From contig JAAYAD010000078.1 in assembly GCA_012719545.1 (NCBI GenBank), positions 92,597-156,596 on the forward strand: a stretch of DNA of 64,000 nucleotides. The letters are read 5' to 3'. Under the pieces are notes generated by a model. That model searched no databases and was not told the origin of the DNA. It worked only from the letters and a program-made list of their open reading frames with translations. This document shows positions 43,928 through 49,273 of the stretch, piece after piece (within the stretch, counting starts at the first letter, position 1; each line of letters begins with the position of its first letter). The translations under genes and the position numbers were made by a program. Origin of the DNA: Clostridiaceae bacterium (GTDB lineage: Bacteria; Bacillota; Clostridia; DSM-8532).

Positions 43928-46279
43928 TTAATTTTGATTGGCCTGAACCTGCGCAAGCTGTGGAAGTTCCGCAATCAGCATGGAAATCTTTCCGTCTTCG
44001 CATGTTACATGAATGGAACTGCCTTTGCTTATTTTACCGGCAAGGTAAAGCTCGGAAAGCTCATCCTCAATATAGCGCTGAATTGTTTTTCTTAAAGGAC
44101 GTGCGCCATATTTTGAATCATAGCCTTTTTCAAGAAGGAAAGCTTTTGCCTTGTCATCAAAGGTTATTGCCATTCCCTTTTCCTGAACATCCCTTATTAT
44201 ATCCTTAAGCATAATGTCGAGTATTTTTTCAAGCTGTTCACGAGTCAGCTCTTCAAATACAATTATTTCATCCACGCGGTTTAAGAATTCGGGACGGAAA
44301 GTCTCCCTTATGGCATTGTTGACCTTCTTTTCAAGAGCCTCATATCCATCCCTGTTAAAGCCTATTCCATTGGAACGCAGGCTTGTTCCGGCATTGGAAG
44401 TCATAATGAGAATGGTGTTTTCAAAGCTGACGGTTCTTCCGTTGCTGTCGGTTAAGCGTCCATCCTCCATAACCTGAAGAAGCATATTGAATACGTCAGG
44501 GTGTGCCTTTTCAATTTCATCCAGCAAAAGAACAGAATAAGGTTTTCTTCTTACCTTTTCGGTAAGCTGTCCTCCCTGGTCAAAGCCAATATATCCCGGA
44601 GGTGCGCCGATTAGCTTGGATACCGTGTGCTTTTCCATATACTCTGACATATCAAGCCTTATCATGGCGTCTTCATTTCCAAAAAGTTCGCATGCCAGGG
44701 CTTTTGCCAGCTCTGTCTTGCCTACGCCGGTGGGGCCTACGAAAATAAAGCTTGCGGGCTTTTTCTTTCTTCTGAAGTCGGAGCGTGTCCTCCTTATGGC
44801 TCGTGCAAGGCTGGATACACCTTTCTCCTGACCAACAACCCTCTGGTGGAGGCGTTCTTCAAGTTTAAGGAGCTTGGCAGCCTCTGTTTCGGAAATCCTC
44901 TGAACCGGTATACCCGTCCAGTTCTCAATTACATAGGCTACGTCATCCACTGTAACATCAAGGGTTCCAACTTCCTGCTCAAGCTTTTTAATCTGTTCCT
45001 GAATACGGCATTCTTCAACCTTATAGTCAGCCGCCTTTTTATAGTCATCGGCCATGGCAGCCTGCTCTTTGAGCTCCTGAATGTTTTTAAGCTCTTCCTT
45101 AAGCTTTGCAAGCTCAACAGAGCCCTGATTCTTAAGGTTAACCCTGGAGCCTGCCTCATCGATAACGTCAATTGCCTTATCAGGCAGGAAACGGTCATGG
45201 ATATACCTTGCAGACAATTTTACGGCTGCTTCAATTACCTCATCGGAGATTCTGGCCTGGTGGAAATCTTCATAATACTGCTTTATACCCTTCAGTATTT
45301 CAATGGTTTCCTCAATTGTAGGCTCATTTACCATTACAGGCTGGAACCTTCTTTCAAGTGCGGAATCCTTCTCGATATGTTTTCTGTAATCCTCAAGAGT
45401 TGTGGCTCCTATTACCTGTATATCACCGCGGGCAAGGGCAGGCTTTAAGATGTTTGCGGCATTCATGGCGCCGCCTTCGGCTTCCCCCGCTCCAACAATA
45501 TTATGAACCTCGTCTATAACGAGAATAATGTTTTTCTGTTCCCTGGCCTCGTCAATAATTGCCTTCATCCTTGCTTCAAACTGGCCCCTGAACTGGGTGC
45601 CTGCAACAATTGCCGCAAGGTCCAAAAGATAAATCTCCTTATCCAAAAGCTTCATGGGAACATTTTTTTCAACTATGCGCAGGGCAAGACCTTCAGCAAT
45701 GGCAGTCTTTCCAACCCCGGGCTCTCCCAGGAGAATGGGATTATTTTTTGTCCTGCGGTTTAAAATCTGCACAACCCGCTCTATTTCCTTATCACGGCCT
45801 ATAATTCTGTCAATGCCTCCTGCTTTGGCCTTTTCGTTTAAGTTTATACCAAAGTTATTAAGATTCTTTCTCGATGATTTGGCTTTGCCGGCATCATTTT
45901 TTACAGGATTTGAAGCCTTCTGGCTCTGGCTGTCTGTTCCTCCGCCAAAGCTTGCAAATGCATTGTTTATAAAGCGGAGCATTGAACTTGCATCAGCATC
46001 ATTCATAATGTTTTTCTTGCTGTCAGGGTCATTGCTGGAGGGCAGGGACTGGACAAACTCGTCCATGCTCATATTTCCAAAAAGCTCGGCCATCTGATTA
46101 TTCAAATTTTCCATATCCTCCTGGGTCATGCCTGACTGGGCAATCATCTGCTGCAGAGGTGCCAATCCCTGCTTTTGTGCACAGGTCATGCAAAGGCCCA
46201 TAGGTTCTGTTTTACCATCTATAACACGGGTTATAAAAACAACCGCAACATTTTCCTTGCAAATGGAACATTTCATCAT
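43928..46279 (-). CDS. clpE: ATP-dependent Clp protease ATP-binding subunit with N-terminal zinc finger (ClpE/ClpC-type)
   Basis: CSIC...CMTC zinc finger, two AAA modules (GEPGVGKTAIAEGLA; GPTGVGKTELAKALA). Confidence 0.9.
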   Translation of the reverse strand: MMKCSICKENVAVVFITRVIDGKTEPMGLCMTCAQKQGLAPLQQMIAQSGMTQEDMENLNNQMAELFGNMSMDEFVQSLPSSNDPDSKKNIMNDADASSMLRFINNAFASFGGGTDSQSQKASNPVKNDAGKAKSSRKNLNNFGINLNEKAKAGGIDRIIGRDKEIERVVQILNRRTKNNPILLGEPGVGKTAIAEGLALRIVEKNVPMKLLDKEIYLLDLAAIVAGTQFRGQFEARMKAIIDEAREQKNIILVIDEVHNIVGAGEAEGGAMNAANILKPALARGDIQVIGATTLEDYRKHIEKDSALERRFQPVMVNEPTIEETIEILKGIKQYYEDFHQARISDEVIEAAVKLSARYIHDRFLPDKAIDVIDEAGSRVNLKNQGSVELAKLKEELKNIQELKEQAAMADDYKKAADYKVEECRIQEQIKKLEQEVGTLDVTVDDVAYVIENWTGIPVQRISETEAAKLLKLEERLHQRVVGQEKGVSSLARAIRRTRSDFRRKKKPASFIFVGPTGVGKTELAKALACELFGNEDAMIRLDMSEYMEKHTVSKLIGAPPGYIGFDQGGQLTEKVRRKPYSVLLLDEIEKAHPDVFNMLLQVMEDGRLTDSNGRTVSFENTILIMTSNAGTSLRSNGIGFNRDGYEALEKKVNNAIRETFRPEFLNRVDEIIVFEELTREQLEKILDIMLKDIIRDVQEKGMAITFDDKAKAFLLEKGYDSKYGARPLRKTIQRYIEDELSELYLAGKISKGSSIHVTCEDGKISMLIAELPQLAQVQANQN

Positions 46280-46399: not shown

Positions 46400-46855
46400 T
46401 CATGTTGTGCAATAAAGCCTTTTTATTACCTTAATTGCATTTCCCGTGCTGTTGAACTCCATACAATCGCAAAGGTTCTGAACTATAAACAATCCTCTTC
46501 CTGATTCATCCATATTGTCGGGATCAAGCTCTGAGATCTTTGAATATGCCAGATTCATAGTGGATATTAGATCAAATCCGCATCCCTGGTCCCTTATGGT
46601 AATTTCCAGTATATTTCCGCTGTCCCCAAGCCTTACCTCGAGGCATATCTTTTTATCCTTATCGCACTCATTCCCATGCTTTATAGCATTCTGAAGCAAT
46701 TCGCTCAAAATGACCTTAACATCAAAGCATTGTTCTTTATCTATGTCTGAAGCCGCCTGAAGCCTTTCTACAATTCTTTTTACCTCTTTGCAGACTTCAA
46801 AGGCATCATTTTCTATTACTCCCCTATATATTTCTATATTATTCTCTATTTCCAT
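46400..46855 (-). CDS. HATPase_c anti-sigma/anti-anti-sigma kinase-like protein (RsbW/SpoIIAB-like), intact ATP motifs
   Basis: N-box SELLQNAIKHGN, G1 DQGCGF, G2 ESGRGLFIVQNL; ATG 46855 follows GGAGGG. Confidence 0.88.
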   Translation of the reverse strand: MEIENNIEIYRGVIENDAFEVCKEVKRIVERLQAASDIDKEQCFDVKVILSELLQNAIKHGNECDKDKKICLEVRLGDSGNILEITIRDQGCGFDLISTMNLAYSKISELDPDNMDESGRGLFIVQNLCDCMEFNSTGNAIKVIKRLYCTT

Positions 46856-46931
46856 TTCGATGATACCCTCCGCTGGCACGAATACGGAACCCTTGGCAAT
46901 GGATTACATTCTTAATAATATATACCCTTAT

Positions 46932-47690
46932 TTACTTCCGCAAAATCATTCTAAATTTTTCTAGGGTCCTTTTTTCAAGCCGGGATATGTACATCTGGGA
47001 TACCTTAAAGCGGTTGGCGATTTCCTTCTGTGTCATGTTCTCAAAGAACCTGAGCCTTATAAACTCCTTCTCGCTGTCACTGAAGTTCTTCATGGCCTTC
47101 TCAAGAAAATCCCGATTATTGATTTTCTCAAAGGTATCGTCATCTTCTCCTATGGTTTCATGCAGTTCCAGATCGTCCTCATCAAAGACTGCCTGGTCAA
47201 ATGACTGAATATTATAGACATTCCAGGACTCAATTATTTCAAGAACAGTTTCTTCCTTAAGGTTCAGGTACTCTGCTATTTCATCCATACGGGGAGCGCG
47301 CTTTAGCTTCTGCATGAGATATTCACGGGCCTGGTTAACCTTCTGGTAAACTTCGTATATGCGTCTGGGAATCCTTATAACTGACGCCTTGTCTCTGAAA
47401 TAGCGCTTTATTTCCCCTATTATGGTAGGTGTTGCAAAGCTGACAAATTTAACTTCCTCTTCCAGGTTAAAGCGGTCAACGGCATTTATAAGCGCAACAC
47501 AAGCAACCTGGTATATATCTTCGTAATCCACACCTCGGTTGATAAACTTCTTTGATATAATTTCAGCAAGATACAAATACCGGGATACAATCTCGTTCCT
47601 TGTTTCTATATCCTTATTGATGCTGTATTGCCTGAATAACTCCTGTTCGGTTTTCTCCTTGTATTTTAATGCCCCGGACACTTTACCCAT
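46932..47690 (-). CDS. RNA polymerase sigma factor, SigB/SigF/SigG family
   Basis: EDIYQVACVALINAVDRFNLEEEVKFVSFATPTIIGEIKRYFRDKASVIRIPRR and C-terminal HTH FENMTQKEIANRFKVSQMYISRLEKRTLEKFR. ATG 47690 follows GGAAAGG; TTG at 47708 is an alternative. Confidence 0.94.
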   Translation of the reverse strand: MGKVSGALKYKEKTEQELFRQYSINKDIETRNEIVSRYLYLAEIISKKFINRGVDYEDIYQVACVALINAVDRFNLEEEVKFVSFATPTIIGEIKRYFRDKASVIRIPRRIYEVYQKVNQAREYLMQKLKRAPRMDEIAEYLNLKEETVLEIIESWNVYNIQSFDQAVFDEDDLELHETIGEDDDTFEKINNRDFLEKAMKNFSDSEKEFIRLRFFENMTQKEIANRFKVSQMYISRLEKRTLEKFRMILRK

Positions 47691-47691
47691 A

Positions 47692-48078
47692 CTAAATTGC
47701 CTTTCCAAGCCCTTTTGTTATGGTTATAACGGTATTATCGCTTTTAACCATTTTTATTTGATCCATCAGTGCGCTGACAATAGCCAGAGAAAAGCTGTCT
47801 TCGTCATTATCAAAGATATTTCCTGCATTATTGTCATTGAGTATAAAGCTTATAGATATTCCGTCTTCTACATTGGACATCTCAATAGATATATGATCAT
47901 CGGAGGGCTTTATTTCTATTATCTTGCCAATGATCTCAGAAAGAGACACCTTAATATCTTCGATGGCATCAAAATCAAAGCCCATAAGGCTTGCGATTCC
48001 TGAGGCCGTAAGCCTGGCGATGCTTACATATTCAGCCTTTAAAGGAATCCGTAGTGACACGGTCTCCATTGCGCTCAT
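47692..48078 (-). CDS. RsbW-like anti-sigma factor with degenerate ATP-binding motifs
   Basis: AEYVSIARLTASGIASLMGFDFDAIEDIKVSLSE matches the RsbW N-terminal half; downstream motifs eroded. Confidence 0.8.
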   Translation of the reverse strand: MSAMETVSLRIPLKAEYVSIARLTASGIASLMGFDFDAIEDIKVSLSEIIGKIIEIKPSDDHISIEMSNVEDGISISFILNDNNAGNIFDNDEDSFSLAIVSALMDQIKMVKSDNTVITITKGLGKAI

Positions 48079-48395
48079 TGTTCGGCCTCCTCCATTATAA
48101 ACACCTTGTCCAGCCCTGTAATTTTAAAGAGCTTTCTTATTGTGCTTCTGGGATTTTTCACAACTATTTTCCCGTCGCGTTCCTTTATGCGCTTTAGGGC
48201 ACCAACCAGAATACCCAGTCCCATACTGTCTATGTACTCAAGGTCGCTGAAATCCAGCACAATATTCTTATGGCCATCGTCAAGCCAGTTGTAAAGCTTG
48301 TCCTTAAAACTGGGAGCCGAATATATGTCTATCTCACCCTTTGCCGCAATGACCATGGTCTCGTTATCATTGGCTTTGATATTTAATTCGAACAT
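48075..48395 (-). CDS. Anti-sigma factor antagonist (STAS, RsbV-like)
   Basis: GEIDIYSAPSFKDKLYNWLDDGHKNIVLDFSDLEYIDSMGLGILVGALKRIKERDGKI; phospho-acceptor Ser in DSMGLG. Confidence 0.93.
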   Translation of the reverse strand: MFELNIKANDNETMVIAAKGEIDIYSAPSFKDKLYNWLDDGHKNIVLDFSDLEYIDSMGLGILVGALKRIKERDGKIVVKNPRSTIRKLFKITGLDKVFIMEEAEQ

Positions 48396-48412: not shown

Positions 48413-49273
48413 TTATTTAACAATTAATTTCATAAACTCGGCAGCATTATCCAGGTTTTCTGCCGAATATCCAAATGCTGCAATGAATCTGTCCCCAACT
48501 AACTCCATTTCTTTAAGCAGCTTGCTGTCGGTTACGTCAATTCCATAGATATCAGGCTTTGTGCTGATGCTCTCAGCTGTCAGAATAAGATCCTCATACT
48601 TATTTTCATCTATTCCTAAAGCATCAAGATCCCCAAGTACTTCTTCAACGGGGAGGAATGCTCCCTGTCTGGCTAGTTCAAAAAACTTTTCCTCATCCAA
48701 TATAAATATATCATTCTTTCCTGCGGAAATCTCGACTACAAATTTTGTCTGCATTGCTGCCTGAAACTGAGCATCAAAATTATCGGACAGGCTAATATTC
48801 TGAACAAGGGCTTCTTCAACACCCTCTATTTCATCTTTTATGCGTTCCTCTAATTTGGCCGTGTCATAAACAAAAATGTCCCCTGCCACAATAACTTTTA
48901 AGTCGGGCTCAGTTTTGTTTACTATTGAAACTATTATGGAAATGACAGCTATAATAGCCACAAGGGCTATTATAGCGTGCCATTTATAGTAATGTATGAT
49001 ATTCCGTGCCTTTTCCTCATCAATTCCCAATAGCTTAAAGATAGGATTTGGATGCTCCTGCCTGTACCTTTTTTCGGCTTCGGCCTTTTCATCAATGTAT
49101 GTAATACCGCAAACTATTTTGTAAGCCTCATCAATATCAGAAAGGGTATACCCACGTTCATCCCTTTCTATATTCTTAAATTTGCGGTATAGTACATCCA
49201 TCCTTTTCACAATTTCATCCTGAGTGGCATCTTCCTTTAACCCCAGAATTTCAAAGGCCGTTTTTCTATCCAT
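48413..49273 (-). CDS. J-domain-like membrane protein with extracytoplasmic domain, unknown function
   Basis: N-terminus TAFEILGLKEDATQDEIVKRMDVLYRKFK resembles a J domain without HPD; one TM helix (AIIALVAIIAVISIIVSIV); about 160-aa C-terminal domain. Confidence 0.75.
   Translation of the reverse strand: MDRKTAFEILGLKEDATQDEIVKRMDVLYRKFKNIERDERGYTLSDIDEAYKIVCGITYIDEKAEAEKRYRQEHPNPIFKLLGIDEEKARNIIHYYKWHAIIALVAIIAVISIIVSIVNKTEPDLKVIVAGDIFVYDTAKLEERIKDEIEGVEEALVQNISLSDNFDAQFQAAMQTKFVVEISAGKNDIFILDEEKFFELARQGAFLPVEEVLGDLDALGIDENKYEDLILTAESISTKPDIYGIDVTDSKLLKEMELVGDRFIAAFGYSAENLDNAAEFMKLIVK

Follow-up and report, generated by a model that had tools for sequence, protein, structure and literature searches.

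In Bacillus subtilis, RsbW acts both as an anti-sigma factor and as a kinase and has the full N, G1 and G2 motifs. In the window, the whole 64,000-nucleotide stretch of DNA analysed here (contig JAAYAD010000078.1, Clostridiaceae bacterium), an RsbW-like protein that we denote W1 has lost these motifs and the ATP lid, whereas a second HATPase gene, W2, lies after the sigma factor gene. The question raised by this locus is whether the two activities of RsbW are divided here between two proteins, as the first-pass annotation had suggested. When the open reading frames were re-read, its gene order and coordinates all matched, and the four frames from STAS to W2 are open on the minus strand. These genes and their two neighbours are as follows.

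48413..49273, minus strand: protein with a DnaJ-like N-terminus, one membrane span and an SBP-like part (weak DnaJ and SBP_bac_1 matches)
48075..48395, minus strand: STAS anti-anti-sigma protein, RsbV/SpoIIAA-like (PF01740 E=1.1e-24; TIGR00377 above cut-off)
47692..48078, minus strand: W1, degenerate RsbW-like protein, predicted nucleotide-independent anti-sigma factor (nearest solved structure by sequence, B. subtilis RsbW, 6m36, E=2.5e-12)
46932..47690, minus strand: sigma-70 factor of the SigB/SigF/SigG type with regions 2, 3 and 4, the putative target of W1 (TIGR02980 SigBFG)
46400..46855, minus strand: W2, motif-complete GHKL protein (HATPase_c_2), predicted STAS kinase (PF13581 E=4.8e-18)
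43928..46279, minus strand: ClpC-like Clp ATPase with an N-terminal zinc-finger segment, the downstream neighbour, in an order kept in relatives

The STAS stop and the W1 start form an ATGA overlap, and the sigma ATG at 47690 lies one base past the W1 stop. W2 starts with the ATG at 46855, an in-frame GTG being present also at 46879, and is the last gene of the operon, about 75 nt past sigma and ahead of clpC. On the same strand, the DnaJ-like membrane protein, lysS and greA are encoded upstream of STAS and the ClpC-type ATPase downstream of W2. The sigma factor scored 241.6 bits against the NCBIfam SigBFG model (TIGR02980; cut-off 234.35), which assigns it to the SigB/SigF/SigG subfamily.

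The W1 motifs SEIIGKII, NDNNAGNIF and DEDSFSLAIV were exact on re-reading. Lys52 occupies the position of the Mg-binding Asn in the N-box, and G1, G2 and the ATP lid are lost. W1 scored 22.0 bits against Pfam HATPase_c_2, under the cut-off of 27.4, and while its top NCBIfam models were those of RsbW, the scores were far under the cut-offs (72.3 versus 145 and 65.8 versus 155.05 bits); the SpoIIAB equivalog model gave 22.5 bits against a cut-off of 135. By profile, W1 matched B. subtilis RsbW over nearly the full length with E=1e-27. A weak AlphaFold model of W1 (two-row alignment, pLDDT 64) had RsbW 6m37 as its top fold match (E=4.7e-9), with UsfX (8ih8/8jzt) and SpoIIAB as further top PDB matches. 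The W1 proteins of 13 further genomes from the genus, as well as those of the family and of distant families, likewise lack the N-box Asn, the G1 DxG, the G2 glycines and the ATP lid, and W1 was degenerate in 108 sequences when those with a linked and an unlinked W2 are taken together. At the Mg-Asn position, 54 of the 87 sequences of the linked type carry Lys or Arg, the others Leu, Ile, Tyr, Phe or another residue, versus Asn in all 27 intact W1 sequences. No alternative conserved nucleotide motif was seen in W1 across the 87 sequences.

Since all orthologues in the genus and family, and others beyond, share the degeneration, it is due neither to sequencing error nor to chance. The dN/dS values among genus members were about 0.15 for W1, 0.14 for W2, 0.10 for STAS and 0.03 for sigma, rough figures in which many pairs are synonymous-saturated, and that of W1 points to a maintained gene. 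Based on this value and on the open frame in all genus members, we ruled out a pseudogene or a sequencing error. As such, the degenerate ATP site that the first-pass annotation had read in the window is confirmed as a loss of motifs kept across relatives, and the degeneration of W1 is, judged from these alignments, real and old.

To see which half of RsbW each protein retains, we compared contact and catalytic residues. In a sequence alignment to RsbW, for which we assume native residue numbering, R22, D41, K43, S47 and E48 of W1 are the equivalents of residues through which RsbW contacts RsbV. R22, D41 and E48 were present in 87/87 sequences of the linked type and K43 in 86/87, and position 47 was Ser or Ala. 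In the RsbV-RsbW crystal structure, Arg23, Asp42, Lys44/Ser48 and Glu49 of RsbW are among the RsbV contacts, and Glu49 touches the phospho-acceptor Ser of RsbV (PMC7340262). W2 is motif-complete, with SELLQNAIKHGN, DQGCGF and ESGRGLFIV exact on re-reading, and scored 65.8 bits against HATPase_c_2, over the Pfam cut-off of 27.4, and 54.3 bits against the SpoIIAB equivalog model (cut-off 135). Among W2 homologues, the catalytic N-box Glu, the Mg-Asn and both G2 glycines were present in 95/95, and the G1 Asp and Gly in 94/95. The equivalent of Arg23 is not conserved in these homologues, the W2 profile aligns to RsbW from residue 32 onward only, and the sigma-binding N-terminal helix (helix 1 of RsbW) is not recognisable in W2; an AlphaFold model from the single W2 sequence (pLDDT 47) was too poor for use. 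The conserved contact residues of W1 and the invariant motifs of W2 suggest that W1 keeps the docking half of RsbW and W2 the catalytic half. The predicted substrate is intact as well, with the phospho-acceptor Ser of the STAS protein lying in YIDSMGLG and present in all 134 STAS neighbours (133 with DSxGxG and one with DSTGLS). A pattern search that seemed to place Cys at this position in a few sequences proved to be a false match.

To determine how far the two states go together, we ran W1 and W2 profiles over 393 Clostridia genomes and then fetched about 140 loci, which fell into three groups. The first comprised 86 degenerate-W1 loci, not counting the window, from 20 families; in 79 of them W2 lies past sigma on the same strand, with a median gap of 95 nt, and the remaining seven were accounted for by four contig ends and three masked (N) stretches. 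The contig ends are those of G015, G021, G117 and G013, and in G013 W2 sits at the edge of a different contig. The second comprised 21 degenerate-W1 loci of families f32 and f45, where every genome had a W2 match elsewhere; in the 14 fetched (L193-L206), W2 stands mostly just before a typA/bipA-like GTPase gene. The third comprised 27 loci with an intact W1 from 11 families, and in none of the 27 was W2 found beside W1 or sigma. By family, the 20 with a degenerate W1 and linked W2 did not overlap with the 11 with an intact W1, and every genome with a W2 match of more than 100 bits also had a degenerate W1. The strongest W2-like matches checked in intact-W1 genomes were W1 itself, SpoIIAB (three) or other HATPases.

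We also sought a degenerate W1 without a second HATPase, which the first-pass annotation had named as evidence against its proposal. Three closed genomes (G056, G203 and G306) appeared as candidates, with only weak matches unlike W2 in whole-genome searches, but all three carry masked sequence (N) directly behind sigma, which leaves them unscorable for W2. For every degenerate W1 with readable downstream sequence, in 22 GTDB families, W2 was adjacent or elsewhere in the genome; the pairing that the annotation had asked about in related Clostridia is thus kept across these families. In the sigma tree, the first group formed one clade (SH-aLRT 98) and the second another (99), and this topology calls for no more than one or two origins of the degenerate W1 state, after which the pair was long retained together. 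The association between W1 and W2 therefore rests on few independent events, and Fisher p-values overstate it.

A division of this kind is known from mycobacteria. Of the M. smegmatis proteins, RsbW1 is the one that binds SigF, and it shows no kinase activity towards RsfB. RsbW2 carries the N, G1 and G2 motifs and phosphorylates Ser63 of RsfB without binding SigF. The authors call the pair specialised as anti-SigF and kinase, and the split was found in vitro and in vivo (PMC7693655). The RsbW1/RsbW2/RsfB/SigF system resembles ours in having, in one genome, a motif-less anti-sigma factor, a motif-complete second homologue and a phosphatase, there of the PP2C type, that opposes the kinase (PMC7693655, PMC10950880), although the roles in our case are predicted. 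It differs in that rsbW1-sigF and rsfB-rsbW2 lie at separate loci, whereas here STAS, W1, sigma and W2 share one operon. The remark in the first-pass annotation that no such module had been described does not hold, given this experimentally shown split. A search on C. thermocellum or Clostridia found no description of a split module among the papers covered, and what is new here is the single-operon clostridial form, its breadth over families and how closely the decay of W1 is tied to W2.

Among the systems compared, B. subtilis RsbV-RsbW-SigB (6m36/6m37, PMC7340262) shares with our locus the order STAS, anti-sigma, sigma as well as the fold, the RsbV-contact residues and the STAS Ser. SpoIIAA-SpoIIAB-SigF (1l0o, 1th8, 1til) shares the fold and the logic of the module, but SpoIIAB is motif-complete and dual-function, and both W1 and W2 are far under its equivalog cut-off. 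The W1 profile match to UsfX had an E of 5e-7, compared with the 1e-27 for Bacillus RsbW. Considering that W1 is nearer to Bacillus RsbW and that its clade lies among clostridial sigma loci with an intact RsbW, the clostridial split probably arose independently of the mycobacterial one, a judgement based on similarity rather than on a rooted tree across phyla.

We considered whether W1 and W2 could instead form a heterodimer, in which sigma would bind to W1 while W2 would contribute the active site, keeping binding coupled to phosphorylation. RsbW and SpoIIAB are dimers, a heterodimer of RsbW1 and RsbW3 has been proposed in M. smegmatis (PMC7693655), and W1 and W2 are near neighbours on the same strand in the 79 loci and strictly co-retained. 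However, W2 lies outside the operon in f32 and f45, its N-terminal part, where RsbW has the interface helix 1, bears no recognisable likeness to RsbW, and the M. smegmatis kinase RsbW2 acts without binding sigma. We regard a heterodimer as unlikely; if it were true, the pair would be one obligate split enzyme, an RsbW divided over two genes, convergent with mycobacteria.

Another possibility, which we consider quite improbable, is that W2 belongs to a different pathway, say as a second regulator or as the kinase of some other STAS protein, and that the STAS protein of the operon either has another kinase or is never phosphorylated. While W2 is the last gene, between sigma and clpC, and the genome encodes SpoIIAB and other HATPase_c_2 proteins, the coupling of strong W2 matches to a degenerate W1, with none beside sigma in intact-W1 genomes, argues against it. 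So does the inventory of the window's own genome, which has two stand-alone STAS proteins and two linked, motif-complete kinases of the RsbW/SpoIIAB type (SpoIIAA-SpoIIAB and STAS-W2), with the SpoIIAA-SpoIIAB-SigF module lying separately on contig C87. The same genome has two clear SpoIIE-family phosphatases. The first is a 798-aa frame inside the window and is probably SpoIIE itself. The second, on contig C46, has 563 aa, a hydrophobic N-terminal half and a PF07228 match with E=1.6e-37, and is predicted to be membrane-anchored; a protein of similar length is found in G010, G320 and G053. Each STAS protein would thus have one kinase and one phosphatase candidate, and the C46 protein is the likely opposing enzyme of the STAS/W1/W2 module.

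A further, reduced state of the module is seen in family f3. Its six loci (L080, L153-L156 and L159) have a partly degenerate W1 and sigma, with neither a STAS gene next to them nor a linked W2; the Asn is kept in 4/6, G1 and G2 are altered to varying degree, and no STAS domain is encoded anywhere in 4/6 genomes. The absence of the kinase where its substrate is absent fits W2 as the STAS kinase. The f3 loci adjoin a gyrA-like gene.

M. tuberculosis UsfX/RsbW (8ih8, 8jzt) is a degenerate anti-SigF that, like W1, has a basic residue in place of the Mg-binding Asn (Arg, in DEVCTRLI) and lacks canonical G1 and G2 motifs. When the structures are aligned, only 18-19% of residues are identical between UsfX and W1, and the STAS partners of UsfX are encoded elsewhere. 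UsfX has nevertheless been reported to bind and hydrolyse nucleotide (Malik et al. 2008, cited in PMC10950880), so lost motifs are no proof of lost ATP binding. UsfX, and the catalytic-position Glu48 kept in all W1 homologues, could speak for a W1 that has a non-canonical site for nucleotide binding or slow kinase activity, with W2 as a second anti-sigma factor or accessory kinase. We nonetheless consider this very unlikely, for Glu48 is explained by direct contact with the STAS Ser (PMC7340262), the 87 sequences hold no conserved substitute for the nucleotide motifs, and M. smegmatis RsbW1 is without kinase activity (PMC7693655).

Taken all together, we consider it likely that this is a partner-switching sigma module in which the two activities of RsbW reside on two proteins, with W1 as an ATP-free anti-sigma factor and W2 as a separate STAS kinase. 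Of the split first suggested for this locus, the comparative side is borne out by the coupling of degenerate W1 to W2 over 22 families and by the retained STAS-contact residues of W1 and catalytic residues of W2, while the biochemical steps are drawn from homology. W1 would be a descendant of RsbW that no longer binds or uses ATP, and its dimer, as in RsbW and SpoIIAB, would hold sigma. Unphosphorylated STAS protein may dock on helices 1-3 of W1 and cause the release of sigma, whereas phosphorylation of the YIDSMGLG Ser by W2 would leave W1 free to hold sigma, and a SpoIIE-type phosphatase, for which the C46 protein is the candidate, would reverse the phosphorylation. If W1 has no ATP site, any effect of the ATP level must act through W2; in such a design the nucleotide state could not directly set the affinity of the anti-sigma factor, and the switch would rest on kinase and phosphatase activity. 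The comparison indicates that the two jobs combined in the single RsbW of Bacillus fall to different proteins in much of the Clostridia. The annotation of W1 as a 'serine-protein kinase' would then be wrong, and the W1/W2 pair would offer a natural separation-of-function system for asking whether sigma binding needs ATP at all.

Several smaller observations accompany these loci. In G056 (L075 2580-5053), a 478-aa ORF between STAS and W1 splits an otherwise tight operon. In family f39, L226 and L227 encode small HATPases that resemble W2 (about 65-70 bits), in genomes lacking a strong match to W1; these may represent a further kinase of the W2 type that works with a different partner. The protein at 48413-49273, to which no function is assigned, is encoded between lysS and STAS in most relatives and is possibly a co-regulated candidate for signal input. 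At the other end of the operon, the Clp ATPase at 43928-46279 has a CxxC zinc-finger N-terminus (MMKCSICKENVAVVFITR...CMTCAQ) that replaces the usual Clp N domain, and among f1-family loci that extend far enough, most keep its place after W2.
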